64,000 nt of DNA from an uncultured Pseudomonadota bacterium (GTDB lineage: Bacteria; Pseudomonadota; Gammaproteobacteria; Steroidobacterales; Steroidobacteraceae), in the NCBI GenBank assembly GCA_903908265.1, contig CAIVRI010000004.1:1-64000 (forward strand). The letters are read 5' to 3'. The notes beneath the pieces are model-generated. The model searched no databases. It had not been told where the DNA came from and saw only the letters and a program-made list of their open reading frames with translations. Positions within the stretch are counted from its first letter, which is position 1. Each line of letters opens with the position of its first letter. The translations under genes were made by a program, and so were the position numbers. Positions 4,188 through 51,361 of the stretch are shown here, in pieces.

Positions 4188-6326
4188 TCACCAAGGCCAT
4201 TCAATACCCAGCAGTATCTGCCGGGACGGCACACGGTACCACCCCGAGGTGCCCGTCACGGTGACGGCATGCTGTAGTTCACTGGTGGAGACCGGATCGC
4301 GACGATCGGTCAGATTGGTGCCCCGCAACCGCAACCGACCACGCCCGACTGGCCACGTAGCCTGCGCGTCCCAGGTCATATAAGACGGCGCCTCTAGGGT
4401 GTTTTCCGGATCGAGCCAACGGGCACCGGAGAAACTCGCGCCCAAAGCCACGGAATGGCCGGCCGCATCATCCCAGCGCAGACTCGTGCCGGCCAACGTG
4501 GCGGGCGACATCGCCACCTGTTTGCCGGATAAATTCACACCCGCCTCATCGGCGCGACTGAGCACCCGCGCATCGTGATGCGCCACGTGGGCATCGATGA
4601 ACCACTGCGTACCGACCCGGAAATGTGCTTCGAGCTCAGCGCCCTGATAGCGATTTTCACCCCCATTGCTCGGTCCATACCCTTGTGCTGTCTCGGCATA
4701 CGTGAGGCCATTGGCCAACGTCATCCGAAACACGCTCGCGTCCACCTCGATCCGGCCCCCAGCTAGCCGGGACTTCAAGCCCAACTCGAGGCTACGCCCC
4801 GTCTCCGGTTTCAGGACCGCCACTTCGGCCTCCGGACCAAAATCCGTGGCGAGCGGTTTGAAACTGGAGCGCGCATCGGTGTACAGCGTCAATGCGTCCT
4901 GCGCGGCACGCCAGACATGCCAGCTTCCGCCAAGGCTGCCGGTCAGACGGGTGTTGTTGCCACGGTCGCTGCCATCAAACACCACCAGCGGCGTTTCCCC
5001 GGTGTTGTCGATGGCGATACCGCTAGCCCGTTCGCGCGTGTGATCGAGGCGGACGCCCGCCACCAAGTCCAGCGGACCGACCGCCCAGTCGCCTTGGGCA
5101 TACAGCCCACTAAAGTCACGGGTATTGCGTGACTGGACGATTTCATCGGCATGGTGCGCGCCCTCACAGGGAATTTCTATGCCCCGTGCATCGACGCAGT
5201 AGCCAAAGTTGATCGCATGCTCACTGCCGGCGCCATGCAGGTGGGAAGCGCCGATCGTGAGACTGCCACCCGAGAACGCATGCACGAGGTGGGCATCAAA
5301 GTAGATATCGGTGATACCCCGCGTTTGCGAATAACCATCTGCCTGTAAGCCATCGCCCACACCCGCATCCGGTGGCAGTGCAAACGCGTCCCCACGCAAG
5401 TAGCCGCGCAAAATATTGTCGAGACTGCGGGTGACTGCGAGCGTGAGACCCCAATCACCCCATGCGCTGCGACCATCCACCGCAACGACGCCGTGGTAAC
5501 GCTCACCCCGCAAATGGGCATCCGCAGGATTAAAGTTCACGTCCGATGAAAATTCAGGATGCAGCACGCCGGCGTCAGCCAGCAGCAGGTTGCCTGCGGG
5601 GCTCTGGGGTACCGAAGACAGGTCCAAATCGACGCGCACCCGCGTCTCGCCATACAGCCCCTCGCCGCGGTACAACGCATGCGCACGGCGCCAGTCGGTG
5701 CGGTCTTCCGTGTAGCCGCGGTGTTCCACGTCAGCGGTCAGCGCCTGATGCCACGCGCCGACATCGGGCAAGCGGGTACTGGCCGAGGCCAGATAACTAC
5801 CGCCCGTTCCCACGCTGAGCGCACCCGTCCGTGGGGTCTCGGCCGCAGACCGATGGATCACGTGAATCACACCCACGAACGAGGTGGCACCGAACATCAC
5901 CGGTGCCGCGCCGCGCAGCACTTCGATGCGCTCGACATTGGTCAGGTCTACCGAGGCGGTCGCCGGATTGAATGCGCCACCCCATGGCACCCCATCCACC
6001 ACCAGCAAGAACGCATCCGCTTCGCGCAAACCCCACAGGGCAGGCACGCTGCCCGCCGGACCCACATCGCCGCCTGCAGTCCCCTCAACCCCCGCCACGC
6101 CCGCGAGGGCCGCACGCAAATCCCGCGCACCACGGGCTTCAAGCTCCGCGCCGGTGACCAGCGAAATGGAGGCCGGCACGTCATCCACTAACTCCGGCTG
6201 ACGCGTGACTGTGACTTCCATGGGAAGGCTGCGTGACGGGGGGTCCGCAACGGCACTATCCATCCGCAACAGCGCCATCACGACCAGAATCGAGGCCGCA
6301 ACGCGGCGTCCGAGCAATATGCGCAT
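4188..6326 (-). CDS. TonB-dependent outer-membrane receptor
   Basis: This is an outer-membrane active transporter for a large or scarce substrate. The ATG at 6326 gives a clean signal peptide (MRILLGRRVAASILVVMALL), while upstream in-frame starts give none. A plug domain spans about residues 35-150, with a TonB-box-like MEVTVTRQPELVDDVPASIS, VVDGVPWGG and VERIEVLRGAAPVMFGA. A beta-barrel fills the rest and ends in ...LLGIEWPW, an aromatic terminus. At 712 residues it is in the range of siderophore/cobalamin-type receptors rather than the larger sugar-type ones. It lies between an exported amidohydrolase (61 bp upstream) and an aminotransferase (22 bp downstream) on one strand. This suggests uptake of a peptide- or amide-like compound; the ligand is inference. 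Confidence 0.9.
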   Translation of the reverse strand: MRILLGRRVAASILVVMALLRMDSAVADPPSRSLPMEVTVTRQPELVDDVPASISLVTGAELEARGARDLRAALAGVAGVEGTAGGDVGPAGSVPALWGLREADAFLLVVDGVPWGGAFNPATASVDLTNVERIEVLRGAAPVMFGATSFVGVIHVIHRSAAETPRTGALSVGTGGSYLASASTRLPDVGAWHQALTADVEHRGYTEDRTDWRRAHALYRGEGLYGETRVRVDLDLSSVPQSPAGNLLLADAGVLHPEFSSDVNFNPADAHLRGERYHGVVAVDGRSAWGDWGLTLAVTRSLDNILRGYLRGDAFALPPDAGVGDGLQADGYSQTRGITDIYFDAHLVHAFSGGSLTIGASHLHGAGSEHAINFGYCVDARGIEIPCEGAHHADEIVQSRNTRDFSGLYAQGDWAVGPLDLVAGVRLDHTRERASGIAIDNTGETPLVVFDGSDRGNNTRLTGSLGGSWHVWRAAQDALTLYTDARSSFKPLATDFGPEAEVAVLKPETGRSLELGLKSRLAGGRIEVDASVFRMTLANGLTYAETAQGYGPSNGGENRYQGAELEAHFRVGTQWFIDAHVAHHDARVLSRADEAGVNLSGKQVAMSPATLAGTSLRWDDAAGHSVALGASFSGARWLDPENTLEAPSYMTWDAQATWPVGRGRLRLRGTNLTDRRDPVSTSELQHAVTVTGTSGWYRVPSRQILLGIEWPW

Positions 6327-6387
6327 AACCAGTCGCTCTATAAACCGCTGATAAGACAATTCTAGCAGAGCGCCCAAATCTCCGGCC

Positions 6388-8313
6388 TCAACGCAAACGA
6401 TGCCCATGAGACGGATGCGCTTGATAGACCCGTCGGCCCTGAAACCAGGTTTCCAAGACCTGCGTCTTGGCCACCGCATCACCAGCACCTGTATCGGCTA
6501 GGGCGATAAAATCGCGATCCACCACCACAAAATCGGCGCTCTTACCCACCGCGATCGAACCGCATTCGTCCTCGCGACCGAGCATGCGTGCGCCATTAAT
6601 CGTGTAAGCGTCCAGTACATCGCGAATGGATACGGTCTGCGCTTGCGATAGCATCGGCTTGCCCGGCAGACGCCGGGTGACCGCCATCGCCATATTCATG
6701 AAGGGACGTGGATCGCGACTCGCCACCGGCGCATCGGAGCCGGCGACGAGAATGGCGCCGGCGTCTCGGCTAGCACGCACCGGATACATCTGTTCCTCGA
6801 AATATGGATCGTGATCGGACGTACCAAGGAAGGGGAACACCGACGGATCATAATCAGGATCGTGTGAGGCCCATGAATAGGTATAGGCCAGATACAAGTG
6901 ATCACGACCCATGCGCAGCACGTCATCAGGATGCGCGAATTGGATATGCGCCAGAGAATCCCGGGTAGTCTGATTACCATCCGCGGCGCGAGCCGCCTCG
7001 ATCGCATCAATCGCAGTGCGCGCACCACGATCACCGATCACGTGGATATGTAAATTGAGTCCAGCCAAATGCATCCGCCGCGCCCACTCCAGTTGCACCG
7101 CGCGTGGGTACTGCAAAACGCCGCGTGCACCCGGACAGCGTTCGTCTGCAGCGTCATCGATGACCTCGCAAGTCGGTGCGGCATAACCGATCAGGTGGGG
7201 ACGACCCTCAGCAGTTCGCGAAAAAATCGGTGCGCGATACGGTACCAACATCGCGGCATTGCCATGCAATGGCGGTATAGCGAACGGATTACCTTCAACT
7301 TCACCATCCGCAAACATCTTCACGAAATCAGCACGAATGAGTGGATGATGCGCGAAGCGGTCCCGCATTTCGACCGCACGAGCCACGAGCAACTCATAGT
7401 CCGGACTGCCATCGGGCGTGAGGACATGCGCCGGATCCTGATGCTGTGCCAGTGACACGCGCAGGGTAAGCTGATTGCGCTCATAGAGCGTTTCGTACAC
7501 CGGCAGTGCTTCCGGGGAAAAAGCGGCTTCCATCACCGCGGTCAGCCCCGCGGCATTTAACGCCTGCGGCAAACGCTCAGGTCGCTGGAGCAGTTTTTCA
7601 ACTTGATTATCGTAGTGCGCGTGCCGGTCGCTGATCAGGCGGCGTGCCCCCTCGTCGACCCGACCATCGGGCTCACCTTGATCATCCACGCCAACAAACA
7701 ACCGCTGTGGCGCGAAAATTCCGTCCAGCGTAGTCCGACTGAGACCGACCATCCGACCGGCCGCGTCGTGCGCGCCGGCCAGCGCCCGACTGTTATACGC
7801 ACTGTGGTGTCCATCATCCCCCATGAGCTCAATCGGACGGTCCTTCGCAATTGCATCGAGTGCAGCGCGCAGCGTGGGGTAGTCGCCGCTGGGGGTATTT
7901 CCAGACGTTGCCGCCCACTGCCGGATTGACAGCCACTCACCGGCTGGCAAAGGATGGCGCAACAAACAAGTCCGTCCCGCCCGTACCAGGGACGGCAAGT
8001 CCAGCGCTTGCGCGCCGAGGTCGCATTCGCCTAAATTGACGACGTCGATCGGGTGGATGTGTGCATCTACCAAGCCAGGGATAACCCGCCGGCCCTGTAG
8101 ATCATGTCGACGCGTGTGGGGGCCGCGCCAGGCTTCAGCACCCGCTGCATCACCGACATAAACAATCTTACCGGCAGCGACGGCCAATGCCGTGGCCTCT
8201 GCCCGCTGCTCGGCCGTATAAATGCGCCCGTGCACATAGAGATCATCGGCCACGTCCTGCGCCAACGCCCCTAGCGGAGTCGCCAATGCCAATAAGACGA
8301 TCCAATAGTGCAT
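6388..8313 (-). CDS. Exported amidohydrolase family protein (YtcJ/amidohydrolase_3 type)
   Basis: This is a metal-dependent hydrolase of the amidohydrolase superfamily, 641 residues. It starts with a signal peptide (MHYWIVLLALATPLGALAQ), so it is periplasmic or secreted. Visible elements are the N-terminal composite beta domain (YVHGRIYTAEQRAEATALAV), the metal motif VDAHIHP near residue 95, KMFADGEVEGN in the middle (candidate metal-bridging lysine), HIHVIGDRGARTAIDAI, the late aspartate in VAGSDAPVASRDP, and the C-terminal GSIAVGKSADFVVVDRD. The ATG at 8313 has AGGGG about 8 bp upstream. It heads a likely operon with the TonB receptor and aminotransferase, and it diverges from a second amidohydrolase of the same family across 71 bp. 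The substrate is unknown. Confidence 0.88.
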   Translation of the reverse strand: MHYWIVLLALATPLGALAQDVADDLYVHGRIYTAEQRAEATALAVAAGKIVYVGDAAGAEAWRGPHTRRHDLQGRRVIPGLVDAHIHPIDVVNLGECDLGAQALDLPSLVRAGRTCLLRHPLPAGEWLSIRQWAATSGNTPSGDYPTLRAALDAIAKDRPIELMGDDGHHSAYNSRALAGAHDAAGRMVGLSRTTLDGIFAPQRLFVGVDDQGEPDGRVDEGARRLISDRHAHYDNQVEKLLQRPERLPQALNAAGLTAVMEAAFSPEALPVYETLYERNQLTLRVSLAQHQDPAHVLTPDGSPDYELLVARAVEMRDRFAHHPLIRADFVKMFADGEVEGNPFAIPPLHGNAAMLVPYRAPIFSRTAEGRPHLIGYAAPTCEVIDDAADERCPGARGVLQYPRAVQLEWARRMHLAGLNLHIHVIGDRGARTAIDAIEAARAADGNQTTRDSLAHIQFAHPDDVLRMGRDHLYLAYTYSWASHDPDYDPSVFPFLGTSDHDPYFEEQMYPVRASRDAGAILVAGSDAPVASRDPRPFMNMAMAVTRRLPGKPMLSQAQTVSIRDVLDAYTINGARMLGREDECGSIAVGKSADFVVVDRDFIALADTGAGDAVAKTQVLETWFQGRRVYQAHPSHGHRLR

Positions 8314-13421: not shown

Positions 13422-14090
13422 ATGGACCGTACCGCCCCCCTACCGCTCGCGCTCCTGCGTGGCACCGCCACCGTACTACCCCGAGCAGTGATTTCGGCGA
13501 TCACAGCAGCCCTCCTGCGTGGGCTGCTCAAAACGCATCCAAGGCTACTCGAAAACCTCACGCGATTAGAGCCGGCCATCGTCCACGTCATCGCCTCCGA
13601 CTTGCCCTATCGCTTCGCCATCACCGTTGGACGCGCACCGATCACACTGACGGTCGTTGATCGCATCGCCACCGGCGCAGACGCACAAGTGAGCGCGTCG
13701 GTAGCCACGCTGGTCGACCTGCTCGAGGGCCGGATCGACAGTGACACCTTGTTCTTTCGCCGTGACCTGCGCATCGCCGGCAATACGGCCGTCGTGGTGG
13801 GCCTACGCAATGTGCTCGATCGAGAAGAATTGTCCATTGCCAACGAACTAGAAGCCCTGTGTGGACCTCTCGGGGGGACAGCTCGGCGTCTCGCACGGGC
13901 GCTTGAGGTCATTGCCGATAGTGCCGGCGCGCGCCTTGCCGCGATGCATCGCACGCTACACCCGCCAGGCACCGAAGCACAGGACCTAACGGCAGACGTC
14001 CGCCGCTGCCACGAGGAAATCGCAGCGCTAACCGCACGGCTTGGCACACTCGAATCGCGCCGCAAGCGACAAGCAGACAAAATCGCATGA
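13422..14090 (+). CDS. ubiT: UbiT, SCP2-domain lipid-binding protein for anaerobic ubiquinone synthesis
   Basis: This 222-residue protein has an SCP2 sterol-carrier fold across roughly residues 30-140 (FAITVGRAPITLTVVDR, ASVATLVDLLEGRIDSDTLFFRRDLRIAG, then NVLDRE). It also has a charged C-terminal helix (HEEIAALTARLGTLESRRKR) likely to be coiled-coil. The FFRRDLRIAGNT motif is shared with E. coli UbiT (YhbT), the accessory factor that binds prenylated quinone intermediates for oxygen-independent hydroxylation. Assignment is strengthened by context: the ATGA at its end starts ubiU, and ubiV follows in the same arrangement. No FNR-like palindrome is visible in the 159-bp upstream gap, so its oxygen control cannot be read here. 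Confidence 0.85.
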   Translation: MDRTAPLPLALLRGTATVLPRAVISAITAALLRGLLKTHPRLLENLTRLEPAIVHVIASDLPYRFAITVGRAPITLTVVDRIATGADAQVSASVATLVDLLEGRIDSDTLFFRRDLRIAGNTAVVVGLRNVLDREELSIANELEALCGPLGGTARRLARALEVIADSAGARLAAMHRTLHPPGTEAQDLTADVRRCHEEIAALTARLGTLESRRKRQADKIA

Positions 14091-15082
14091 GCATCCGCTA
14101 CCTAGAACTCGTCTGCCCGGCCGGCACACCATCGGCACTACGCACGGCAGTTGAGGCCGGCGCTGACACGGTCTACTGTGGATTCCGCGACTGCACCAAC
14201 GCCCGCAACTATCCGGGCCTCAATTTCGATTTTGACGAACTGTGCGCAGGGGTCACCTACGCGCATGCCCGCGACTGCAAGGTGCTCGTCGCAATCAATA
14301 CGTTCCCACGCGCGGGCGACGAGAGCCCGTGGCATCGCGCAGTCGACCACGCCGCTGCCGCCGGCGTCGATGCAGTCATTCTGGCCGACCTCGGCGTACT
14401 CGATTACGCAACCCGATGCCATCCAAACCTACGCCGCCACCTGTCGGTCCAGGCCTCAGCGGCCAACGCCCCGTCGATCCAGTTTTATCGCGACCACTTC
14501 GACGTCCGCCGCGTGGTCCTGCCGCGCGTGCTCTCGGTGGAGGCGGTTGCGGAGTTGATCGCCGAGACTGGGATCGAAACCGAGGTATTCGCGTTCGGTA
14601 GCGTAGGTCCCATGTCCGAGGGTCGCTGCTACCTATCGTCCTATCTGACCGGACTGTCTCCCACAAGTGAGGGGGCCTGTGCCCCGGCCAGTCACGTGGC
14701 CTATGAGGAAATCGACGGACGCGTCCTATCGCGCCTTGGCGGCGTAACCCTCAACTGCTTCGCGCGCGGCGAGCCGGCAGCGTACCCAACGCCGTGCAAG
14801 GGCCGCTACGTAACCCACGGGCAAGCTTCCTACCTGTTCGAAGAACCCGTCGGCTTAAATGCCATCGAGATCCTGCCGCAGTTAAAGGGCGCCGGCGTCA
14901 CGGCTCTTAAAATTGAAGGCCGTCAGCGCAGCCGCGCCTATGTCGCCGAGGTGGTCACCACCTTTCGGCGCGCACTTGATGCGCTCGAGCGCTGCGACGA
15001 GGGCACACCGACCGGTCAATTGCATGGCAATACGGAGGGCGGCAAGGAAACCTGCGGTGCCTACCAGAAGGGTTGGCGATGA
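14087..15082 (+). CDS. ubiU: UbiU, U32-family subunit of the O2-independent ubiquinone hydroxylase
   Basis: This is a 331-residue peptidase-U32-family protein acting with UbiV and UbiT to hydroxylate the ubiquinone ring using prephenate rather than O2. It aligns along its length with E. coli UbiU (YhbU): ELVCPAGTPSALRTAVEAGA at the start, RRVVLPRVLSVEAV, FAFGS..MSEGRCYLSSYLTG, PTPCKGRYV, and KIEGRQRSRAYVAEVV. E. coli UbiU binds a [4Fe-4S] cluster through C169, C176, C193 and C232. Here the matching residues are G174, C181, C198 and C237, so spacing is identical but the first ligand is glycine. A non-conserved C224 lies nearby. Both gene boundaries are 4-bp ATGA overlaps, implying coupled, stoichiometric expression. 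Confidence 0.92.
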   Translation: MSIRYLELVCPAGTPSALRTAVEAGADTVYCGFRDCTNARNYPGLNFDFDELCAGVTYAHARDCKVLVAINTFPRAGDESPWHRAVDHAAAAGVDAVILADLGVLDYATRCHPNLRRHLSVQASAANAPSIQFYRDHFDVRRVVLPRVLSVEAVAELIAETGIETEVFAFGSVGPMSEGRCYLSSYLTGLSPTSEGACAPASHVAYEEIDGRVLSRLGGVTLNCFARGEPAAYPTPCKGRYVTHGQASYLFEEPVGLNAIEILPQLKGAGVTALKIEGRQRSRAYVAEVVTTFRRALDALERCDEGTPTGQLHGNTEGGKETCGAYQKGWR

Positions 15083-15969
15083 AGCGCGCACGTCTGACAC
15101 TGGGCCCGCTGCTGTTTCATTGGTCAGCGGCAAAACGCCGTGACTTTTACCTGCGTATCGCCGATGAGGCACCAGTGGATACCGTGTACGTTGGCGAGGT
15201 TGTCTGCGCGAAGCGGGAGCCGATGGTCGCATCCGTGCAACAAGAGATCATCGCGCGGCTGCGGGCTGCCGACAAAGAAGTTGTACTCTCCACCCTCGCA
15301 CTCGTGACCACGCTACGCGAAGTTGAGCGCATTCGGGAATTGGTCAACGGCGACTTGCTGCTCGAAGCAAACGATGTCGCCTGCATACAGCTACTCGAGG
15401 GAAAAGCACACGTAGTAGGACCGTATATCAATGCCTTCAACGAAGGTGCACGCGATGTGCTGGTGCGCAAGGGCGCGATACGCATCGTACTCCCGATCGA
15501 GATGAATAAAACAGGACTCCAGGTCGTCGCCGGCACAGCCGGGGATACCGAATTGGAATATCAAGTATTTGGTCGCCAGGCACTGTCGGTCGCGATGCGC
15601 TGCTACCACGCCCGCGCCCACCGTTTGACTAAGGATCATTGCCAGATCATCTGTGGCATCGATCCCGATGGTCTGGCGGCTGACACCATCGACGGCATTG
15701 CACTGTTCACCATCAACGGCACCCAGACCCTCACGCACGGCAACGCCGTCCTGCTCAGCGAACTGGCCATGCTGCGCGAATTTGGGGTCACTCATTTTAG
15801 ATTATCGCCGCAGGACCTCGATATGGTGGCGGTGGCAACGCACTACCGGGCGGTGCTCGACGGGGAGCAAGCAGCCGACGAGGTGACTGCGGCGCTGCGC
15901 ACCCTGACCGGCACAACGCCGTGGATCAACGGCTTTTTACACGGACAGCCTGGCCGTCAATGGGTATGA
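15079..15969 (+). CDS. ubiV: UbiV, U32-family subunit of the O2-independent ubiquinone hydroxylase
   Basis: This 296-residue U32-family protein is the partner of UbiU. The ATG at 15079 overlaps the ubiU stop (ATGA). A TTG two codons earlier is less likely. It carries all four cysteines that bind [4Fe-4S] in E. coli UbiV (C39, C180, C193, C197). Here they are C43 in VYVGEVVCAKRE, C175 in VAMRCYHAR, and C188/C192 in DHCQIICGIDPDG, with the last three at identical spacing. Other family marks are VLSTLALVTTLREVE, LLLEANDVACIQLLEGK and VTHFRLSPQDLDMV. It works in the cytoplasm as a heterodimer with UbiU, so its intact site contrasts with the altered UbiU site. It converges on the halogenase gene downstream. 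Confidence 0.93.
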   Translation: MKRARLTLGPLLFHWSAAKRRDFYLRIADEAPVDTVYVGEVVCAKREPMVASVQQEIIARLRAADKEVVLSTLALVTTLREVERIRELVNGDLLLEANDVACIQLLEGKAHVVGPYINAFNEGARDVLVRKGAIRIVLPIEMNKTGLQVVAGTAGDTELEYQVFGRQALSVAMRCYHARAHRLTKDHCQIICGIDPDGLAADTIDGIALFTINGTQTLTHGNAVLLSELAMLREFGVTHFRLSPQDLDMVAVATHYRAVLDGEQAADEVTAALRTLTGTTPWINGFLHGQPGRQWV

Positions 15970-16030: not shown

Positions 16031-17524
16031 CTACACGCCGACTGGTAGCGCCGCGCAATAGCCCGAGACGTACTCTCGATGGGACGGCTGGCTCGCTACA
16101 CGGGTCGCAATCCGATTTTTGATGCCTTTCAACAGTTCGTCCAGTTCCTTCGCAGAGAGAGTCTCCGTGAAAGGATGATACTGTTTGGGAATGATGCCCT
16201 GACCGATGAGTACCGCAACCCAAGAAGGCTCGGAAAACAATTCATTGTCGTCGCGAAATATTTTTCCGCCGGTGCTAAAAAGATCAATTTTATGCCGTAG
16301 CGTCTCCGGAATGGCCATGGTACGACATGCGTCCCAATACGGGGTGTCGGCCCGGCACGTGGCATGGTAGTGGAGAATGATGAAATCGCGGATGTGCTCA
16401 ATCTCCATCTTCACTTCTCGATTAAACTGATTGATCTCTGCCTGGTAGGAATTGCCGGAGGGAAACAACTTAATCAAGCGAATGATGCTGTTATGGATCA
16501 GATGAATACTCGTGGACTCGAGAGGCTCTAGAAATCCACTCGCAAGACCTAGCGCCACACAATTCTTGTTCCATTGCTGGAGACGACGCCCGGTCCGAAA
16601 TTTGATCACCCGCGGATCGGTCAGCGGACGACCGTCGAGGTTATCCAGTAGCGACTTGCGCGCCGCCTCGTCCGACATATAGTGACTGCTATACACCAAC
16701 CCATTGCCCACTCGGTGCTGCAACGGGATCTTCCATTGCCAACCACAGGAGCGCGCGGTAGAGCGCGTGTAAGGCAATGGGGCTCCGACGGACTCCGTCT
16801 GCACCGCAACTGCACTGTCACTACGCAGCCACTGGCCCCAATCCTCCCAGCCAGTCTGTAACGCCTGTTCAATCAGTAATCCGCGAAACCCACTGCAATC
16901 AATGTACAGGTCGCCCTCAATGCGCTGACCGGACTCCAACTGTACGGCATGAATGAAGCCAGACTCCCCGTCGAGACGCACATCTACGACTTTCCCCTCA
17001 ATCCGGACCACCCCGCGTTGTTGACTGTGCCGGCGCAATAGAGCGGCATAAAGGGCGGCGTCAAAATGGTACGCGTAGTTGGCTTTAGGCTCCCCTACCT
17101 GACCAAAGCGCCCCGCACGGGCGAGTACGGCCTCGTAACTGAAGGCATCAATCGGTGGCGTCTCACCTTGCTGGCGGGCGCGCAACCAATAGTGATGGAA
17201 CTGGGCCGCCCAACGGTCGACCCCGTGCCCACCAAAAGGATGGAAGTAGCGCTCGCCCAGTGCACCCCAGTTCTCGAATTCGATCCCCAGTTTGAAGGTC
17301 GCATTCACGGCCCGCATGAAGTCGGCTTCACCAAGTTCCAAAAGGAGGTGCAAATTGCGAATCGTTGGGATCGTCGCCTCGCCGACACCAACCGTGCCAA
17401 TTTCGTCCGATTCGATTAACTGAATCGAAAGGCCTGCGCCGAAGGCCTTTGATAACGCAGCGGCAGCCATCCATCCGGCCGTACCGCCCCCCACAATCAC
17501 CACCCGTCTTGGCGGACTGTGCAT
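16031..17524 (-). CDS. Flavin-dependent halogenase (tryptophan halogenase family), distal copy
   Basis: The 497 residues carry every hallmark of the family. These are the FAD motif IVGGGTAGWMAA (residues 10-21), GVGEATIPTIRN, the catalytic lysine K78 in TFKLGIEFENW, the WxWxIP signature as W262-Q-W-K-I-P267, and E336 in FLEPLESTSIH. In characterised members, reduced FAD plus O2 and halide give HOCl or HOBr, which is guided to the lysine. Substrate residues differ from PrnA/RebH-type tryptophan enzymes, so indole-like or other aromatic substrates, or bromide preference, are possible. It is last in the minus-strand group, 43 bp after the cupin gene. No flavin reductase gene is present in the window to supply FADH2. 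Confidence 0.88.
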   Translation of the reverse strand: MHSPPRRVVIVGGGTAGWMAAAALSKAFGAGLSIQLIESDEIGTVGVGEATIPTIRNLHLLLELGEADFMRAVNATFKLGIEFENWGALGERYFHPFGGHGVDRWAAQFHHYWLRARQQGETPPIDAFSYEAVLARAGRFGQVGEPKANYAYHFDAALYAALLRRHSQQRGVVRIEGKVVDVRLDGESGFIHAVQLESGQRIEGDLYIDCSGFRGLLIEQALQTGWEDWGQWLRSDSAVAVQTESVGAPLPYTRSTARSCGWQWKIPLQHRVGNGLVYSSHYMSDEAARKSLLDNLDGRPLTDPRVIKFRTGRRLQQWNKNCVALGLASGFLEPLESTSIHLIHNSIIRLIKLFPSGNSYQAEINQFNREVKMEIEHIRDFIILHYHATCRADTPYWDACRTMAIPETLRHKIDLFSTGGKIFRDDNELFSEPSWVAVLIGQGIIPKQYHPFTETLSAKELDELLKGIKNRIATRVASQPSHREYVSGYCAALPVGV

Positions 17525-17567
17525 TACGAGGCTCTGGTCTGTAATGCGAGGGGTATCAGCACGACAA

Positions 17568-18581
17568 TCACCGGTTTAAGTTAGCGCGTAGCAAAGCGCG
17601 CATTTTGCGTGCGCAGTCTTCATCTATCGGCCCCAGCGGACCGCGCCGCGCCACCGGAATATGGTCCGCGACCTGCGCACCGGGCTCGAACACATAATGA
17701 TTGAAGATGCCCTGCCAGGCGCGTCGGTGCGCCGGCGGTAGGTCGCGGATATTCAAAATGGCATGCAACAACGCGTCGCCTGGTGGCCCCATGTGTGGGG
17801 CTGCCTCGCGCCACCAATGGTTAATCAACACATTAAACGGCGCCAATGCCTGTACGTGATGCCACCACATGCACGGAATGAAGATCGCATCACCCGGTTC
17901 GAGCACCGCCGTCACGGCATGGCTCAATGCTTCAGCGAACCGCGGATGGAGCGCGAAGTCTGGTTGGTCGAAGTTCACGAGGCTGATTGCTTGGCCCGCG
18001 GGCGTGAAATCGATGGGCCCGACGTACAGGTTAGCCAATTGAGCGGGAGGGAAGAGCGTGAATCGCCGGCGCCCGGCACAGACCACCGCAAGGTTATCGA
18101 GCGCATCGTAATGAGCGGCGACTGTCGTCTGGTTTCCAATCCAGACCCGAACGGTGGACTCACCACCCTCTAACGGCCATGAGTTGGCCTCGGCGATGCC
18201 CGGCAGGACATGCTCTAACGCGGCGGAGCCCATATAGATCGTCGGGGAATCAGCACGCGCCTCACCGTCACGGATGCGATCGAGCAAGCCCGATAGCGTG
18301 GTCTTGACCTGCTGGAAATTCGTGTTGGCGAGCCCGTCGGTATAAAAAATCCGCCCGTCATGCTGGGCTTCAGCGACAAAGGCATGCACAGGGGCACCTC
18401 GGTAAAAGCCCAGCAGATACGCCATTGCAGAGGCACTGGACACCAGACTTGCCTGAACGAGCGGCCAGTGCGAAGCCGCCGCACGGATTACCACTGGCGT
18501 CTGCTCGGTGGCTAAGCACTGCAGGAGTGCCTGCGGGGGCCTGCCGGCGAGTTCCCGCATAGCGCTCGGCCCTGCCATCAT
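17568..18581 (-). CDS. Cupin-like JmjC-domain protein (cupin_8, FIH-1-like)
   Basis: This is a 337-residue protein of the cupin_8/JmjC group of Fe(II)/2-oxoglutarate dioxygenases. The metal triad is visible as H157-Y-D159 in TTVAAHYDALDNLAVV and a late histidine at 241 or 242 in FIPCMWWHHVQAL. N-terminal TPVVIRAAASHWP (residues 28-40) is the usual opening of these proteins, and GRRRFTLFPP is the strand carrying co-substrate contacts. Homologues sit beside SapC and halogenase genes in many TonB-receptor loci. It may hydroxylate a protein side chain or small molecule in that pathway. The start overlaps the sapC stop by 4 bp, so the two are translationally coupled. Confidence 0.85.
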   Translation of the reverse strand: MMAGPSAMRELAGRPPQALLQCLATEQTPVVIRAAASHWPLVQASLVSSASAMAYLLGFYRGAPVHAFVAEAQHDGRIFYTDGLANTNFQQVKTTLSGLLDRIRDGEARADSPTIYMGSAALEHVLPGIAEANSWPLEGGESTVRVWIGNQTTVAAHYDALDNLAVVCAGRRRFTLFPPAQLANLYVGPIDFTPAGQAISLVNFDQPDFALHPRFAEALSHAVTAVLEPGDAIFIPCMWWHHVQALAPFNVLINHWWREAAPHMGPPGDALLHAILNIRDLPPAHRRAWQGIFNHYVFEPGAQVADHIPVARRGPLGPIDEDCARKMRALLRANLNR

Positions 18582-19321
18582 GTTGCGCTGCGCAAGTCGG
18601 ACAAGCGGCGGTTTTTTCGCGCCACAAGTCGCTTCACATTCAGTAACGATGCCAACATCATGTACACGTCCTGCAGATGCCCTCGGCTGTGGAGGGCTTC
18701 TAGACCGTTTGCGCGGAGGCCACGAAACTTCTCGTCGTTAACGGTATAGAGGCCCTCCAGACTATGCTTCGTGCCGTTCTCAAATTCCACATTGATGGTG
18801 ATGGACTCAATCAGTTCTAAACCAACCAATACTTGCGATAGCGAGCGTGCCGCCTCGTGGCCCGCGTAAATGGCGGCCAGAATGGAATGGATGCGATCTA
18901 AATAGGGACTCTCTCCACCCTGTGGCAGAAAGATTGGAATGCCTTCCGATACACTGACACTCGGATGCTCAACGTCTATATGGGTGACAGGCACTTGCTG
19001 GGCAATGCCCTCCAGCAATCGGTCCTGAAACCCGATCAAAAATGGCTGGCGCTGTACCGTCAGCGGAATATGTTCCGCATCCCACCCACTATCTGTGAGA
19101 TACAAGTTTTCGTGTTCGGCAAAGCCCAGCAGCGCCGTTGGCTCAAAATGACCTGATTCCAAGTTCTTGACGAAGAACAGCGGGTATTCGCGTTGTAAGT
19201 TGGGCAGTTCCGATGGAAATGCACGTGCAATGTTGAAGTCATAGCCGCGATTGGGGCCATAAATGGTATGGACCCGTAACCTGCGATGCGTCACATTGTC
19301 GAGCAATTCGTGTTTACTCAT
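18578..19321 (-). CDS. SapC family protein
   Basis: This 247-residue protein has the features of the SapC family (named from a Campylobacter S-layer-associated gene). An N-terminal NIARAFPSELPNLQREYPLFFVKN is followed by ALLGFAEHENLYL, PLTVQRQPFLIGFQ and a C-terminal FENGTKHSLEGLYTVNDEKF...L. There is no signal peptide or membrane span, so it appears cytoplasmic. The biochemical role is not established. Its recurrent presence with tryptophan-halogenase-like and cupin-8 genes downstream of TonB receptors suggests a part in one shared pathway. The ATG has GAGGAA about 5 bp upstream. It lies 52 bp after the proximal halogenase and overlaps the cupin gene by 4 bp. Confidence 0.85.
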   Translation of the reverse strand: MSKHELLDNVTHRRLRVHTIYGPNRGYDFNIARAFPSELPNLQREYPLFFVKNLESGHFEPTALLGFAEHENLYLTDSGWDAEHIPLTVQRQPFLIGFQDRLLEGIAQQVPVTHIDVEHPSVSVSEGIPIFLPQGGESPYLDRIHSILAAIYAGHEAARSLSQVLVGLELIESITINVEFENGTKHSLEGLYTVNDEKFRGLRANGLEALHSRGHLQDVYMMLASLLNVKRLVARKNRRLSDLRSAT

Positions 19322-19373
19322 GGTTCCTCAGATGCGGGTGTGCATCCTCTGTGTGCCGTTTGAAGTTGCGCGT

Positions 19374-20936
19374 TCAACGCGCCGATCCGGACTCGAGCAG
19401 CCGCCGCAGCAGTTCGCGGTGACCCGGCAAGTGGTGCAGCAAGTGTCCCGCTCGTTCGCGATTTTCTGCAAATAACTGCGCGGCCCGAGCGGCTTCCACC
19501 TCCCGTACAAGGCGGACCGAGGCGCGGGTGGAGAATCCCATTCCGTAGAGAATGTACTGGTAACTGGCAGAGGAAAATATTTCATCGCGCTGGTGGAAAT
19601 CACTGTGCCATGGCGCGTGGTATTCCCAAAGATGCAACAGTTCCTGCAGGCGTTCCGGAATACTCGACGCCTGGCGATGGTCCACCCAATACGGGCCCTC
19701 TCGGCGACTCAACACATAGTGCAGTTTCAAAAAGTCGATCACCCGCTCCCAACGATAGAGAAACTTCTCGTTGTAACGTCGGGCGATGATGTCCATAACA
19801 CCCCGGTGTACGGGCAGCTCCTCACCGATCATCGTTGCGGCCAGTTCCACCAACACCAGCGCACTGGCTTCCAGCGGCTCGAGGAATCCCGCCGACATGC
19901 CGACCGCTACGCAATTGCGATGCCAAAAGCACGCTCTGTAGCCAGGACGGAAGCTGATTTTTCGCGCCTCAAAATGCGGCAACGCCGAAGGCGCCGTACG
20001 CGCGACATAATCGTGCAGCACCGCCTCCGCTGCCTGGTCGGTTGTATGCTGACTGGAATACGTGTAACCGACTCCGCGCCGCGTGGTCAGTCCAATATCC
20101 CAGATCCATCCCGCGGATTGGGCAATGGACAGTGTCTGTGAAGCGATCGGACTCTGCGCCGATGAGTAGTCCACCGGGACAGCGAGGGCCGAGTCGTTGA
20201 ACAGCACATCGGCCTTATCGATGAAGGGGACGCGGTAATGGCGGCCTAACAACAACGCGGACAGTCCCGTACAATCAATGAACAGATCCCCGGGGAGATC
20301 GCCGCTGTGCGTAGTGCTCACCGACGCGATGTCCCCATCCGCGGTGTTATTAATGCCGGTGACGTGATCGAGGACATGTCGGACCCCTAGCTGCGTCGTG
20401 CAATGCCGCTGCAACAGACCCGCAAACTTGCCCGCATCTAAGTGATAACCATAGTTGAGAACCCCCGCATAAGGCGGTGTCGTGGCCTGCTTGGGCGCAA
20501 GTGACGCGTCACATATATAGCTTTGCGCACTCACCGCTTGCGCGAAACTGCCGCTGTCGCGCTGGGCCAACCAGTGCGGCACCAGATTGATCTCGGCATA
20601 GCCTGTAGGCGCCGTAAACGGGTGGTAGTACTCGTCATCTGCTTGCCCGGTGACCCAGCCGCGAAACTGCGTGCCCTGTTTGAAAGCGCTCGAACATTCT
20701 CGCAGGAACTCCAACTCAGAAATGCCGATCTGCTCGAGTGAGGCACGCATTGTGGGCCAGGTCCCCTCGCCGACACCGATGGTGGCCACATCCGGGGATT
20801 CGACGAGCGTGATCTGTACCCCTCGCTCGCCCGCCGTGCGGTGACGGGACGCAAGCAGGCCCGCCGTCAGCCAACCTGCACTGCCGCCACCGACGATCAC
20901 GATCCGGGAGAGAGGGCGTTGTAGTGGCTCGTTCAT
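19374..20936 (-). CDS. Flavin-dependent halogenase (tryptophan halogenase family), proximal copy
   Basis: The protein is 520 residues, distant from the other halogenase in this locus. It has IVGGGSAGWLTAG (residues 14-26), GVGEGTWPTMR, the catalytic-type lysine K86 in AFKQGTQFRGW and E356 in FLEPLEASAL. The signature normally written WxWxIP reads W277-I-W-D-I-G282, so the proline is glycine. That motif normally blocks monooxygenase-type access to flavin, so the change may alter chemistry. The only plausible start is the ATG at 20936. No Shine-Dalgarno precedes it, because the 8 bases upstream are all T and before those is a terminator stem. It is the first gene after the TonB receptor and probably heads the halogenase-sapC-cupin-halogenase unit. 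Confidence 0.85.
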   Translation of the reverse strand: MNEPLQRPLSRIVIVGGGSAGWLTAGLLASRHRTAGERGVQITLVESPDVATIGVGEGTWPTMRASLEQIGISELEFLRECSSAFKQGTQFRGWVTGQADDEYYHPFTAPTGYAEINLVPHWLAQRDSGSFAQAVSAQSYICDASLAPKQATTPPYAGVLNYGYHLDAGKFAGLLQRHCTTQLGVRHVLDHVTGINNTADGDIASVSTTHSGDLPGDLFIDCTGLSALLLGRHYRVPFIDKADVLFNDSALAVPVDYSSAQSPIASQTLSIAQSAGWIWDIGLTTRRGVGYTYSSQHTTDQAAEAVLHDYVARTAPSALPHFEARKISFRPGYRACFWHRNCVAVGMSAGFLEPLEASALVLVELAATMIGEELPVHRGVMDIIARRYNEKFLYRWERVIDFLKLHYVLSRREGPYWVDHRQASSIPERLQELLHLWEYHAPWHSDFHQRDEIFSSASYQYILYGMGFSTRASVRLVREVEAARAAQLFAENRERAGHLLHHLPGHRELLRRLLESGSAR

Positions 20937-20965
20937 AAAAAAAAGCCGCTGGGGGTCCAGCGGCT
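20937..20965 (-). terminator. Intrinsic terminator abutting the proximal halogenase start codon
   Basis: On the minus strand a perfect 9-bp stem (AGCCGCTGG/CCAGCGGCT) with an ACCC loop is followed by eight T and then directly by the ATG of the halogenase. It lies 25 bp after the TonB receptor stop. It is a canonical Rho-independent terminator and also occupies the place where a ribosome-binding site should be. Confidence 0.9.
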
Positions 20966-20990
20966 CTAATGTAATGGCTATATCGCTGGA

Positions 20991-23900
20991 TTAGAAGCGA
21001 TAACGCGCGCCAATATTGAAGCGGGTCCCGTACTGATTCCCTCTGAGGAACTGCTCGGGATACCGCACGTAGGTGCGCTGGGTCTGATGGGTGAGATTAA
21101 TCGCCTCGAAGAACACGGCGAGGTTATCGGTCGTTTTCCAGGTGGCGTTGTAATCCAATTGCCCATACTTCTGCTGATAGACGGGCGAACCGAACTGATC
21201 GAAGCCGGAGAGGAACTCATCGCGCCGGTTATAGGCAAGACGGGTTGATACACGCTTGTTCTCATAAAATCCGGTGACGTTCGCAGAATTGCTCAGACCC
21301 GGCAGCGCAAAACTCTGCCGGATCACATTCCGGTCTGCATTGACATCACCGCCGACGATCGTCACGTTGGCCTGGATGCCAAATCCGGAGCGACCAAACA
21401 TGTGCTGCATTGCCAGTTCAACGCCATGCAAGTTGCCGACTTTTTGATTGGCGGTAGAACCCACGGTAAAGACCGCGAGCGGATCGGTTGGCAAGGCCGC
21501 GATATGCGTACCGGCTGGCTGCCCGAGATCCGTATTGATCTGATCAAACACTGCCTGGTCAGTGATCGCAGCACCTGCCGCTGCCAACTCTGCGCGCGCT
21601 TGCGTCGCAGCAGCACCGATATACGGATCGGTGATCCCGGCGATGGTCTGCTGGGTGGTGGAACCAACGAGGAAGTTATTCACCCGCTTGGTGTAGTAAC
21701 CGACCGACACATAACTGCCCGGTGCGTAATACCACTCCAGCGAGAGGTCGAAGTTGTCTGACACATAGGGCAGCAAGTTCGGATTACCCACCGTAATCGA
21801 CCGCGCATTGTTGTTTGGCTTGGCGGAAAAGTCCCGCGTGGGCGACAACGCCCCAATCGGTGGACGCGCGATCGAGCGACTGTAGGAGAAGCGCGCTTTT
21901 ACCGCGCTGCTCAAGGCCATATCTACGTCCAGGCTGGGGAGCCAGAAGCGGGTTTTGCCCCTGCCCTCGGCAGTGACTGGTGCGCCAAAGGTGTAGGCGA
22001 ATTCGTTGCCACCGGCCCACTGAATCCCAGTAGCCGGGATTTCCTGACCGTAGGACCGTGTGCTGCTGTCTTCGTAGCGGATTCCCAACACCGCATTGAT
22101 CGGCATACCTTTGAAACTGTCTTGCATGACCATTTGGGTATAGAACGAGCTAATGGTCTCCTCCACCCGCGAATCAGGTCCCAAGGGACCCGGCCAGAAC
22201 CGACCAGCTGTGTGATCCGCATTCTGGAAGGTCGGTCCCCAACTCGGCCAGTACACGTTGATCGGATCGTTAGTGCCAATGGTCTCGAACTGCCGGACAG
22301 CCGTGTCAAAGGGCACTGTATAATAAGAGTTCAACGACTGATTAGCGCCGGAGAAATTGCTGAGCAGCCCCGCGAAGCTTCCCTTTTGCAGTACACCGTT
22401 CTGCCAGTACTGCGCCGAGGTCAGCCAGTAGCCAGCTGGGAGGTTGTTCGAATAGGCATTCTGCTGGTCGAACGTTTGCTTGGTGTAGCCATAGCCGAAA
22501 TCGACGGACTTGACCGGGCTTTGTTCGGCGTTCTTCCACTTGCCCCCTAACTGGATCTGATCGATCCCATTCTTCTGCTTGGTGTTGAACGCTTGGCCGA
22601 ACAAGGAGCCAATATCGCCCTGTCCTGGGAAGCCAATCGGATTGCCATTCCCGTCAATGAAGGTGGCATTCATAATCGGCACACCCGAACTCGAGAAAGT
22701 GCCAGTCTTCTGGTCAATCGTCGCGGTGTTTGGCCCAAATCCTGGACCTGCGCCGGCACACCACGGGCAGGAGGTATTGCCAATAATAAGGTTCGCTGAA
22801 CTGGCGTCCTCACCGCCGACACCAGCACCGCCAAATTTCGACGATGAACTGTGCGCATCCAGGTTCAACGTGAGGTTATCGGTGGCCTTGAACGTGACAT
22901 TAAAACCAACGGAGTTGTTTTCTTTGATGGTGTGATCGCGCGCGATATTGGTGGACCAGTCGCCGGGTGACCCGCCGTTCTGGGTCACCTGCGTCACGGT
23001 GCCGCGTTCATTAATCACCGCATCGACATTGGGGCCGGCAAACCAGATGCCAACACTATTTGCGTCTTTGAGCAGTTCCAGTTTGGAGTACGTGTAATCA
23101 AGGGTCGCGGTAACGCGATCAGTCGGCGCCCACTGCAAGACGGCCTGACCGTTCGTGCGCGTACGCGTAATGTCAGCCCAACCATAGCCGATGTTCTGGG
23201 GATGCCAATACACCCCATCCGCTCGCTTGTTGTTGTTCTCGACCGTGCCGGCGACGAACGGGTTGTTGTTGCCCCCGGTACACTGGTAACTGGGGCACCA
23301 GTTATCAACGGCGGCGTTCTCCTCGCGATTATCGCGCTTCTGGTAGGCGCCGGAGAGGAGCACACCGAACTTGTCATCGGCAAACGTGTCGCTGACGATG
23401 CCCGAGATTTCCGGCGTGAGTTCATGCAGTTTGCGGATACTGGATTTGGATGCCGAGTTCTCGTGCACGCCCTTGGCGCTGAATGCACCATGAAATCCTG
23501 CTTCGTCCAAGGGGCGCGCCGTGCGGATATCCACGGTCGCACCAATGCCGCCCGTGGGCAGATACGCTTTTGCCGTCTTGAAGACCTCCACCGCGCTGAT
23601 GCCTTCGGTGGCAATGTCATTGAAATCAAACGAACGGCCACCGGCCGTGGGCATGGAGCGGCCATTCAACGTCACGAGGTTGAATTCAGGGCCCATGCCA
23701 CGGACCGTGATCTTCGAGCCTTCTTCGTTGAACCGGTCGATCGAGACGCCCGGAATACGCGCCAACGCCTCGGCGAGGTTTTGCTCCGGGAACTTGCCCA
23801 TCTCTTCTGCATTAATGGCTTCCACAACGCCGGTCGCATTGCGTTTGACGGCTACCGCCGAGGTCAAACTGGCACGAATGCCCGTCACCACCACCTCTTC

Positions 23901-24011
23901 AAGGGTGTCGGCAGGCGCGTTCTGTGCCCAAGTGGCCGACGAGGCCGACATCGCCAACGCAAGCGCCACCGCGCGAGCGACCGGCGTATTCAACGAATGA
24001 CGAGTATCCAT
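20991..24011 (-). CDS. Large TonB-dependent receptor of the Xanthomonas/Caulobacter type
   Basis: This 1006-residue outer-membrane transporter has a signal peptide (ARAVALALAMSASSATWAQ) followed by the TonB-box-like EEVVVTGIRASLTSAVAVKR. A plug domain follows (VVEAINAEEMGKFPEQNLAEAL, IPGVSIDRF, TVRGMGPEFNLVTLNGRSM, FDFNDIATEGISAVEVFKT), then a barrel ending in GARYRF. This plug signature marks the TonB-receptor subgroup expanded in Xanthomonadales, Caulobacterales and relatives, many members of which take up glycans or other plant or algal material. The start has AGAGGGA about 9 bp upstream. Two LacI-type operators lie 160-240 bp upstream and an intrinsic terminator follows the stop. The halogenase/SapC/cupin genes downstream suggest its cargo is processed by them. 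Confidence 0.93.
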   Translation of the reverse strand: MDTRHSLNTPVARAVALALAMSASSATWAQNAPADTLEEVVVTGIRASLTSAVAVKRNATGVVEAINAEEMGKFPEQNLAEALARIPGVSIDRFNEEGSKITVRGMGPEFNLVTLNGRSMPTAGGRSFDFNDIATEGISAVEVFKTAKAYLPTGGIGATVDIRTARPLDEAGFHGAFSAKGVHENSASKSSIRKLHELTPEISGIVSDTFADDKFGVLLSGAYQKRDNREENAAVDNWCPSYQCTGGNNNPFVAGTVENNNKRADGVYWHPQNIGYGWADITRTRTNGQAVLQWAPTDRVTATLDYTYSKLELLKDANSVGIWFAGPNVDAVINERGTVTQVTQNGGSPGDWSTNIARDHTIKENNSVGFNVTFKATDNLTLNLDAHSSSSKFGGAGVGGEDASSANLIIGNTSCPWCAGAGPGFGPNTATIDQKTGTFSSSGVPIMNATFIDGNGNPIGFPGQGDIGSLFGQAFNTKQKNGIDQIQLGGKWKNAEQSPVKSVDFGYGYTKQTFDQQNAYSNNLPAGYWLTSAQYWQNGVLQKGSFAGLLSNFSGANQSLNSYYTVPFDTAVRQFETIGTNDPINVYWPSWGPTFQNADHTAGRFWPGPLGPDSRVEETISSFYTQMVMQDSFKGMPINAVLGIRYEDSSTRSYGQEIPATGIQWAGGNEFAYTFGAPVTAEGRGKTRFWLPSLDVDMALSSAVKARFSYSRSIARPPIGALSPTRDFSAKPNNNARSITVGNPNLLPYVSDNFDLSLEWYYAPGSYVSVGYYTKRVNNFLVGSTTQQTIAGITDPYIGAAATQARAELAAAGAAITDQAVFDQINTDLGQPAGTHIAALPTDPLAVFTVGSTANQKVGNLHGVELAMQHMFGRSGFGIQANVTIVGGDVNADRNVIRQSFALPGLSNSANVTGFYENKRVSTRLAYNRRDEFLSGFDQFGSPVYQQKYGQLDYNATWKTTDNLAVFFEAINLTHQTQRTYVRYPEQFLRGNQYGTRFNIGARYRF

Positions 24012-24486: not shown

Positions 24487-25734
24487 TCAGCGCAGACCGC
24501 CGAGCACCTCGAGCAGTGCATCCACTTCCGCTAGCGTGTTGTAGTGGGCCAACCCGAGCCGGGCAACGCCCTCCGGCCGGCCGACCCGCAGCGCCGCTTC
24601 CATTGCGTAAAAGTTGCCGTACCAGATAAATTGGTTGTGCTCGGCAAAACGTTGCGCCACCGCTTCCGGTGCCTGCCCGCGCACCGAGAAACTAAACGTC
24701 GGTACGCGACCGGCCACCGCGGCTGGATCCGCAATCCCATACAAGGTCACGTGCGGCATCGCCCGCACGCCGTTGAGGAACCGAACCGACAGCGCCGTTT
24801 CATGCACCGTCGCGGCCGCCAGACCGGCACTCATGCGCGCCCGTAACGAGGCCGCAGGGCTCGCGCCACCGAACTGCTCACCCAACCACGCGAGATGTTC
24901 AAAAGCGCCGTACGTGCCCAATTGCGCCTCAAACGATGGCGTACCCGGGGCATGGCGATGCGGCATCGTCATAGGTGCGGGGCGCACTTTGAGGGGTGGG
25001 ACCAAGCTATCGGCGAAGTCGCGCCGTAAGTACATCAGTCCCGCATGCGGGCCAAAATATTTGTACGGCGAGGACGCCAGGATATCGCTGCCAATGGCGC
25101 GCGCATCCAAAGCCATATGGGGCGCGGACTGCACCACATCAACGACCGTTACCGCACCAACCGCTTTGCCCGCTGCCACAATACGGCGCACGTCATTGAT
25201 GGTGCCCGTAAAATTCGAGGCATGATTGCAGGCCACGAGACGCGTGCGCGCGTCAATCAACTGATCGAGTTGGTCGTAGCGGTAGAGAAACGTTTCGGGG
25301 TCAAAATCCAGAAAGCGCACCGTCACGCCACGTTCTTCGGCTGCCAGAATCCACGGACCGACGTTGGCGTCGTGATCCATGCGCGTGACCAAAATATTGT
25401 CGCCCGCCCGCCAGTTGCGGGCGATCATCCGCGAGAAATGAAACACCAGTGTCGTGGTGTTCAGACCAAAAACTACTTCATCGGCGTCGGCATTAAAAAA
25501 CTCGCCCGCCGCCTCGTGCACGCGCAGCAGCCACTGGTCGGTAGCGACCGAGGTGCAAAATGGGCCGCCCTCGTTCGCGCAATGGTCAACCATGGCCTGC
25601 CGCGTACGCACGATCGCTCGTTCGCAGACCTGAGTACCCCCGGGTGCGTCGGCATAAAGTCGTGCTAAGCCCTTGTCAGACAAGGAAAGTGCGGGGAAAG
25701 CGCCGCGAACGGCCAGATCATTCCAGGAGGACAT
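24487..25734 (-). CDS. Cysteine desulfurase-like class V aminotransferase (VC1184 subfamily)
   Basis: This is a 415-residue fold-type I PLP protein of the class V aminotransferase family. Features in order are YADAPGGTQV at the start (typical LDGPGGTQ-like opening of this subgroup), TRMDHDANVGPW, VDVVQSAPHMALD (PLP-contacting D199, Q202, H206) and SSPYKYFGPHAG with Schiff-base lysine K225. The C-terminal region FSVRGQAPEAVAQ...GNFYAMEAALRVG also fits. This subfamily lacks the mobile catalytic-cysteine loop known from IscS and NifS, so true desulfurase activity is doubtful and the substrate is unknown. It stands alone on its strand, diverging from a DUF1993 gene across 107 bp. Confidence 0.82.
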   Translation of the reverse strand: MSSWNDLAVRGAFPALSLSDKGLARLYADAPGGTQVCERAIVRTRQAMVDHCANEGGPFCTSVATDQWLLRVHEAAGEFFNADADEVVFGLNTTTLVFHFSRMIARNWRAGDNILVTRMDHDANVGPWILAAEERGVTVRFLDFDPETFLYRYDQLDQLIDARTRLVACNHASNFTGTINDVRRIVAAGKAVGAVTVVDVVQSAPHMALDARAIGSDILASSPYKYFGPHAGLMYLRRDFADSLVPPLKVRPAPMTMPHRHAPGTPSFEAQLGTYGAFEHLAWLGEQFGGASPAASLRARMSAGLAAATVHETALSVRFLNGVRAMPHVTLYGIADPAAVAGRVPTFSFSVRGQAPEAVAQRFAEHNQFIWYGNFYAMEAALRVGRPEGVARLGLAHYNTLAEVDALLEVLGGLR

Positions 25735-50534: not shown

Positions 50535-50646
50535 ACAGTACGTAGTCCTTCGGGTCGGAGACGAATCAGTCGGTCACGGACCCGACGGGTGGCGAGGATA
50601 CACTGCGCGCCGCGTGCACGGAATTGCCAAACAGTCCTTTTGGGCA

Positions 50647-51243: not shown

Positions 51244-51325
51244 ACGGCTCCCACTCGTTAGTCGGAATTTACCGCAACAACAGCCGCCGCGTCAGCCTAT
51301 AGCGCCGCGCGCTACCGCCTTTCGC

Positions 51326-51339
51326 ATAACAAATGTTAT
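51326..51339. promoter_or_regulatory. Palindromic operator candidate between the tetR and mttB-family genes
   Basis: ATAACA-AA-TGTTAT is a perfect inverted repeat (6-bp arms, 2-bp centre) about 22 bp upstream of the mttB-family start and 83 bp from the BetI-like start. This is a natural binding position for that repressor over both divergent promoters. Confidence 0.5.
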
Positions 51340-51361
51340 AAATGAGGAAAAGGGGAACCTT

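Follow-up and report, generated by a model that had tools for sequence, protein, structure and literature searches.

Organization of the locus

The window, i.e. the whole stretch of DNA analyzed (64,000 nucleotides), carries five open reading frames (ORFs) on the minus strand between positions 24011 and 16031, which encode a TonB-dependent receptor (TBDR), a halogenase (HalA), a SapC family protein, a cupin/JmjC-like protein (Cup8), and a second halogenase (HalB). The features are listed in Table 1. The positions and sizes of these ORFs had been given correctly in the initial annotation, and its description of tight or overlapping joints also held: SapC and Cup8 overlap by 4 nt, and the coordinates leave 54 nt between TBDR and HalA, 52 nt between HalA and SapC, and 43 nt between Cup8 and HalB. 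Because the ORF calls use the first start codon, overlaps are overstated.

Table 1 Features of the five-gene cassette in the window.
Feature	Position	Strand	Size	Basis
TonB-dependent receptor (TBDR), TonB-Xanth-Caul TIGR01782	20991..24011	-	1006 aa	Profile scores
Terminator-like hairpin in the TBDR-HalA gap	20942..20967	-	11 pairs + T run	Terminator scan
HalA, putative 2PYX-type flavin-dependent halogenase	19374..20936	-	520 aa	Profile, match to structure relative, motifs
SapC family protein	18578..19321	-	247 aa	PF07277, model
Cup8, predicted Cupin_8/JmjC-like iron-dependent oxygenase	17568..18581	-	337 aa	Profiles, motifs
HalB, predicted Xcc4156/BrvH-type flavin-dependent halogenase	16031..17524	-	497 aa	Profile, motifs

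The source genome (3.4 Mb in 174 contigs) contained five full-length halogenases with one more weak match, and a single copy of SapC. The earlier remark that no flavin reductase is encoded locally holds for PF01613, the two matches of the genome being located on contigs C143 and C121. Two other halogenases (contigs C78 and C151) adjoin receptors of a different barrel type (OMP_b-brl_4), and none of the four tested neighbors of the halogenase on contig C28 was a receptor. On contig C78 (L008:194-8684), a HalB-type halogenase gene lies between the OMP_b-brl_4 receptor gene and a glucoamylase gene, and genes for LacI and an ABC ATPase adjoin.

Recurrence of the gene set

The distribution of the set was examined in 80 named loci. 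These were the best 80 of 589 when relatives were ranked by their similarity to a single Cup8, and they therefore lean to near relatives. The exact order TBDR-HalA-SapC-Cup8-HalB was found in 39 of these best 80 of 589, and TBDR-SapC-Cup8-HalB in 21; a same-strand receptor belonged to the group in 70 and SapC in 73. By order, the same 80 loci (best 80 of 589) were assigned to Burkholderiales (39), Lysobacterales (25), Steroidobacterales, Cellvibrionales, and Alteromonadales (3 each), Kordiimonadales (1), and unplaced groups (6), and the gene order was kept across beta- and gammaproteobacteria. The expectation that two unlike halogenases, SapC, and a JmjC/cupin protein recur as a receptor-linked unit was thus borne out. 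For Xanthomonadales/Lysobacterales, the recurrence was seen directly; for Caulobacterales, the evidence was limited to a SapC match in the control genome of Caulobacter vibrioides. No fusion of cassette genes was found among the ORFs of the 80 loci (best 80 of 589). Between receptor and SapC at L101:8837-9094 (+), in Massilia pinisoli, a short HalA remnant was observed, a sign of HalA loss.

Neighborhood mining, which the initial annotation had proposed, covered 102 groups containing SapC or Cup8, taken around the SapC places of 60 genomes and from the 80 named loci (best 80 of 589). SapC was present in 18 of the 60 genomes, the source genome included; a first contig scan with a single SapC as the query had given no match. 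The full order was found in 43 of the 102 groups (window included) and TBDR-SapC-Cup8-HalB in 21, followed by HalA-SapC-Cup8-HalB without a receptor in the group (7) and SapC alone (6), the remainder being smaller or rearranged. In six of the seven receptor-less groups, the contig ends no more than about 2.3 kb away; locus L040 is the exception. Among the 43 full loci, the pairwise distances of the receptor and those of each enzyme correlated at 0.81-0.85, which co-inheritance alone would also give. These results indicate that the five-gene set is a conserved module with lineage-specific losses, and not a chance cluster.

A further sample took 274 genomes evenly from across the class; it contained SapC at 49 places in 40 genomes, and HalA proper (at least 700 bits, the next match scoring 399) at seven places in four genomes; for the HalA count, the query alignment included the window and genome G042, and the best five candidates per genome were scored. 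At six of the seven HalA places, SapC is less than 100 bp away; the remaining one (L187) has the order TBDR-SapC-Cup8-HalB-HalA. Since two of the four genomes fed the query alignment, the independent evidence for the HalA-SapC association comes down to five places, which lie in two genomes sharing one genus code.

The two halogenases

HalA and HalB scored 380 and 644 bits, respectively, with PF04820 (cut-off 21). They had been described as unlike each other, rightly so: the best solved relative is 2pyx for HalA and 6y1w for HalB. HalB of the window has GGGTAG, K78, WQWKIP, and E336-S337-T338, the motifs of a flavin-dependent halogenase. Lys78 and EP[IL]EST were each invariant in the set of 80 HalB sequences; at least 78 of these have WxWx[IV]P, and one reads WRWRIAL. 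By its motifs, HalB is a flavin-dependent halogenase, and its halogenating activity is predicted from that of Xcc4156.

HalA is of the same type as 2PYX, presumably a Shewanella-type structure, which it matched over residues 5-517 with 576 bits. Lys86 was conserved in all 53 HalA sequences, and the halide site reads EPLE[AS][ST]. The WxWxIP motif is absent and replaced by WxWDI, again in 53 of 53 (WIWDIGL in the window). On the basis of the PF04820 score and Lys86, HalA is regarded as a divergent member of the family with putative activity. In the part of PMC7336383 that was available, 2PYX is termed unpublished work.

HalB is of the same type as Xcc4156 of Xanthomonas campestris, the protein of PDB 6y1w (PMC7336383, in part), with 594 bits, and 6y1w shares 89% identity over 486 residues with the HalB encoded in the Xanthomonas melonis cassette (L107). 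BrvH (PDB 6frl) belongs to the same halogenase group (496 bits). According to the available parts of the two reports, Xcc4156 and BrvH act on indoles and reject free tryptophan, the three Xcc enzymes catalyze bromination only, and Xcc4156 has an open active site, its native substrate being unknown and a peptide being suggested (PMC7336383); BrvH is slow on indole, may act on larger substrates, and has a second halogenase gene upstream (PMC5945002). Peptide halogenation of the MibH type was raised for both enzymes (PMC7336383, PMC5945002, the same parts). Xcc4156 was studied as a lone enzyme, whereas the type sits here in a cassette. The available text of these two papers does not mention TonB, SapC, or cupin, and that of PMC8269204 does not mention TonB. 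A literature search covering few subscription papers found no publication joining SapC and a halogenase, none for a SapC family protein and a TonB-dependent receptor, and none for tryptophan halogenase and TonB with carbohydrate utilization, cupin, or laminarin.

The association of halogenases with receptors was also examined in G024, a single-contig genome chosen as rich in both. Of its 15 halogenases scoring above 250 bits, 10 have one of the 11 above-cut-off TIGR01782 receptors no more than 7 kb away (rotation expectation 0.65, p 0.0011), two of the loci being cassettes. The tie between halogenase and receptor may thus extend beyond the cassette.

Cup8 and SapC

Cup8 matched PF13621 (Cupin_8) with 222 bits and JmjC_2 with 28.9 bits, and has the Fe(II)/2OG ligands of the JmjC type (H157-Y-D159 and H241). 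HxD was found in 92 of 93 Cup8 sequences and the histidine of the distal site in all 93. The best solved matches were FIH (E 3e-17) and JMJD5 (E 9e-16) over the core only (residues 138-262), with TYW5-like C2orf60 and JMJD7 at lower rank. This resemblance to the protein hydroxylases FIH and JMJD5 makes Cup8 a putative protein hydroxylase. At two loci of one order code (L050:2577-4653 and L052:9600-11674), SapC lies beside a 2OG-FeII_Oxy_3 protein, with a receptor of another type nearby.

SapC scored 193 bits with PF07277 (cut-off 28.9) and belongs to that family. Its predicted model had a mean pLDDT of 96.8, and no match was obtained with Foldseek at E of 0.001 or below in PDB or viral models, nor with VIA at Z of 2 or above among 993 chains. 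According to the tool's note, a best Z of 7-8 is usual even for models without a match; this null result may therefore reflect a limit of the search, and no new fold is claimed. As no fold match was found, the adaptor role considered below is drawn from the neighborhood of SapC.

Twenty SapC loci outside the cassette (L174-L193, of which L187 is a cassette) were picked among the 49 places of the 274-genome sample, mostly high-scoring ones. A giant ORF of at least 1400 aa, nearly devoid of cysteine and in most cases with abundant Gly, Thr, and Asp, was present at 13 of these 20 chosen loci, sometimes not adjacent to SapC; two long Arg-rich ORFs at L189 were excluded from this count as probable antisense. 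ShlB transporters were found at L180, L184, and L185, and OEP with HlyD at L179. ORFs of at least 1300 aa numbered 16 in the 0.25 Mb of the chosen SapC loci versus 15 in the 1.53 Mb of the 80 cassette loci (best 80 of 589). SapC thus tends to adjoin genes for exported proteins.

The receptor

The receptor scored 618 bits with TIGR01782 (cut-off 310), has the Plug (PF07715) and barrel (PF00593) domains, and belongs to the TonB-Xanth-Caul family. With a model of the module receptors, six cassette receptors scored 1127-1253 bits and other TIGR01782 receptors at most 462, and by this score the module receptors are a distinct subfamily. The AlphaFold model of the receptor had a mean pLDDT of 75.1. 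In this model, W238, W323, and W529 are predicted at strand ends or in long loops of low confidence, on what would be the outer side as judged by loop length.

We looked for residues that follow the halogenases. Receptors longer than 850 aa were taken, one per locus (83, one of the two at L132 being left out), and L051 and L054, which are of another type, were dropped to give 81 module receptors from loci with both halogenases (43), HalB only (25), HalA only (5), or none (8). The comparison set was 16 receptors of the TIGR01782 search from other loci, some of them near halogenases themselves. No aromatic column cleanly tracked the presence of a halogenase between these 81 and 16 receptors. W323 was kept in 81 of 81, including the eight loci without a halogenase. 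W238 was present in three of these eight and in nearly all receptors with a halogenase, L077 and L128 having a halogenase and yet Tyr at this position; the pattern is suggestive only.

The hairpin between receptor and halogenase

In the window, the gap between TBDR and HalA was found to contain a strong, terminator-like hairpin, which is absent from the initial annotation. Such hairpins were present in 27 of 46 TBDR-HalA gaps of at least 20 nt (0.5 expected) and in six of 26 TBDR-SapC gaps (0.6 expected), the expectations coming from mononucleotide shuffles and the TBDR-HalA loci being related. In the one scan of all groups, none was found in 20 HalA-SapC gaps or 15 Cup8-HalB gaps. The core stem GCCGCTG/CAGCGGC occurred in 15 of 48 TBDR-HalA gaps, and the 1.01 Mb of sequence at these loci held four further copies. 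On inspection, stems of different sequence retained pairing. Between 15900 and 25000, terminators found by a loose rule were not enriched (7 versus 8.6 expected), nor were sigma-70-like promoters (3 versus 3.8 expected). Because the loose-rule hairpins are not enriched, the terminator assignment rests on the strong hairpins at one joint. The hairpin makes a single five-gene transcript doubtful, partial read-through being possible. Transcription of the receptor gene probably ends separately, and the enzymes would be expressed by read-through or from another start.

Flanking genes

In the 80 named loci (best 80 of 589), flanking-gene clusters of GH3 and LacI were found at 23 loci each and GH16 at 17. 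GH3, GH16, and LacI flank Massilia-like loci, which suggests beta-glucan use in some lineages. In Xanthomonas and near relatives, the flanks contain dipeptidyl peptidase (8 loci), DUF885 (8 loci), and TAP-like hydrolase (7 loci), and the tested neighbors in the window include a dipeptidase, an arginase, an aminotransferase, and amidohydrolases. These flanks suggest peptides in other lineages, the neighborhood alone being no proof of shared function. The constant partner of the cassette is the receptor subfamily, while the flanking catabolic genes vary.

Co-occurrence with glycoside hydrolases and LacI, which the initial annotation had proposed to look for, was confirmed for other species but not for the window: its tested neighbors include no glycoside hydrolase or LacI, so that it does not qualify as a carbohydrate utilization locus, whereas many relatives do. 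A TonB receptor beside a cytosolic iron-dependent hydroxylase is known from fiu-ybiX and piuA-piuC, in which the receptors are for siderophores and neither halogenase nor SapC is present. The carbohydrate utilization loci of Xanthomonas and Caulobacter (PMC1790865) share the TonB receptor family and, with the cassettes of other species, the adjoining glycoside hydrolase or LacI genes; unlike the cassette, they are described in that text with no halogenase, SapC, or cupin.

Possible function of the cassette

Our leading, though tentative, interpretation is that the four enzymes form a tailoring cassette attached to one TonB-receptor subfamily and acting on a polypeptide. The first candidate for this polypeptide is the not-yet-exported receptor, and SapC would be an adaptor. 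No signal peptide was seen by eye in the four enzymes, which would act jointly in the cytosol: SapC would recognize the substrate, HalB and perhaps HalA would place bromine onto tryptophan or tyrosine, and Cup8 would hydroxylate a side chain in the manner of its relatives FIH and JMJD5. Reduced flavin would be supplied by a general reductase encoded elsewhere in the genome. A little enzyme would be sufficient, which fits a hairpin passing only part of the transcripts. The position of SapC beside genes for exported proteins favors a polypeptide as the substrate. The joint travel of receptor and enzymes (full order in 43 of 102 groups), the likeness of Cup8 to protein hydroxylases, the giant Cys-poor ORFs at 13 of the 20 chosen SapC loci, and the peptide substrates proposed for Xcc4156 and BrvH (available parts of PMC7336383 and PMC5945002) are in line with it.

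Several observations count against the receptor as this polypeptide. None of its aromatic residues followed the presence of a halogenase among the module receptors compared. At L040, the four enzymes occur with no adjacent receptor, and eight groups have receptor and Cup8 without a halogenase; the receptor of the window lacks Trp or Tyr residues that others keep (V332, F374, R929, and T687). Enzymatic bromination of an outer-membrane protein is not known to us from any bacterium. Within this interpretation, an unannotated peptide would be the alternative substrate. In the most far-reaching form of the receptor model, to which we give a low probability, SapC would present the newly made outer-membrane receptor to the brominase pair and the FIH-like hydroxylase, and would also serve more broadly as an adaptor for beta-rich proteins bound for export, elsewhere giant two-partner and type I exoproteins.

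The initial annotation had instead proposed that an imported aromatic or glycoconjugate is halogenated and hydroxylated. Spelled out, this model has the receptor taking up a compound with an aromatic part, which would pass through both membranes into the cytosol, where its bromination and hydroxylation would serve use or detoxification. Several observations speak for import: a receptor accompanies the enzymes in 70 of the 80 named loci (best 80 of 589), Xcc4156 and BrvH accept indoles (PMC7336383 and PMC5945002, in part), MFS and ABC genes flank some loci, and the conserved tryptophans of the receptor are modeled where ligand-binding residues would be expected, at the ends of strands or in long loops. 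However, no inner-membrane transporter belongs to the cassette, the activity of BrvH on indole is low (available part of PMC5945002), and the tested flanking genes, which have no aromatic pathway in common, indicate beta-glucan or peptides rather than aromatics. An imported aromatic or glycoconjugate as the modified substrate was not supported, and we consider the import model slightly less likely than the leading one. A separate cytosolic peptide or small metabolite (a signal, a siderophore-like compound, or a defence compound), made or modified by the enzymes and taken up by the receptor as product or complex, would agree with the usual role of flavin-dependent halogenases in tailoring natural products. 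The peptide halogenation of the MibH type raised for BrvH and Xcc4156 (PMC7336383, PMC5945002, in the parts available) also points that way. Such a product is unlikely, because no biosynthetic gene beyond the five was conserved in the groups read as flanking-gene clusters, and the commonest flanks (LacI, GH3, GH16, and ABC ATPase) each occur at no more than 23 of the 80 loci (best 80 of 589).

A loss of halogenation, with one or both proteins now serving as flavin monooxygenases, would fit the WxWDI of HalA and its EPLE[AS][ST] halide site. This is very improbable, given the invariant Lys86 of HalA, the nearly complete conservation of all three motifs in HalB, and the bromination by Xcc4156, a near relative of HalB (available part of PMC7336383).

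If the receptor is indeed modified in this way, it would be exported with bromine on tryptophan or tyrosine and with a hydroxyl group on a side chain. Xcc4156 and BrvH were purified, assayed, and crystallized without a known natural substrate (PMC7336383, PMC5945002, in part). The cassette, with its receptor subfamily, SapC, and protein-hydroxylase-like enzyme, narrows the substrate question for the Xcc4156 type to a few candidates, and gives SapC and the 2PYX-type halogenase a functional context.

Other genes in the window

Upstream of the receptor and on the same strand, a cysteine-desulfurase-like aminotransferase V (TIGR01976, above cut-off) is encoded at 24487-25734 (-). A UbiT-UbiU-UbiV row for oxygen-independent ubiquinone synthesis, with all three above the NCBIfam cut-offs, lies at 13422-15969 (+) and converges on the HalB end. 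A second, shorter TonB receptor (766 aa) was found at 4188-6488 (-), beside an amidohydrolase and an aminotransferase. Genes of the sarcosine-oxidase type occupy 46088-55320: alpha-subunit domains at 46088-49021, a beta-type gene just below the cut-off at 49260-50534, and a DAO/GcvT-like protein at 52735-55320.
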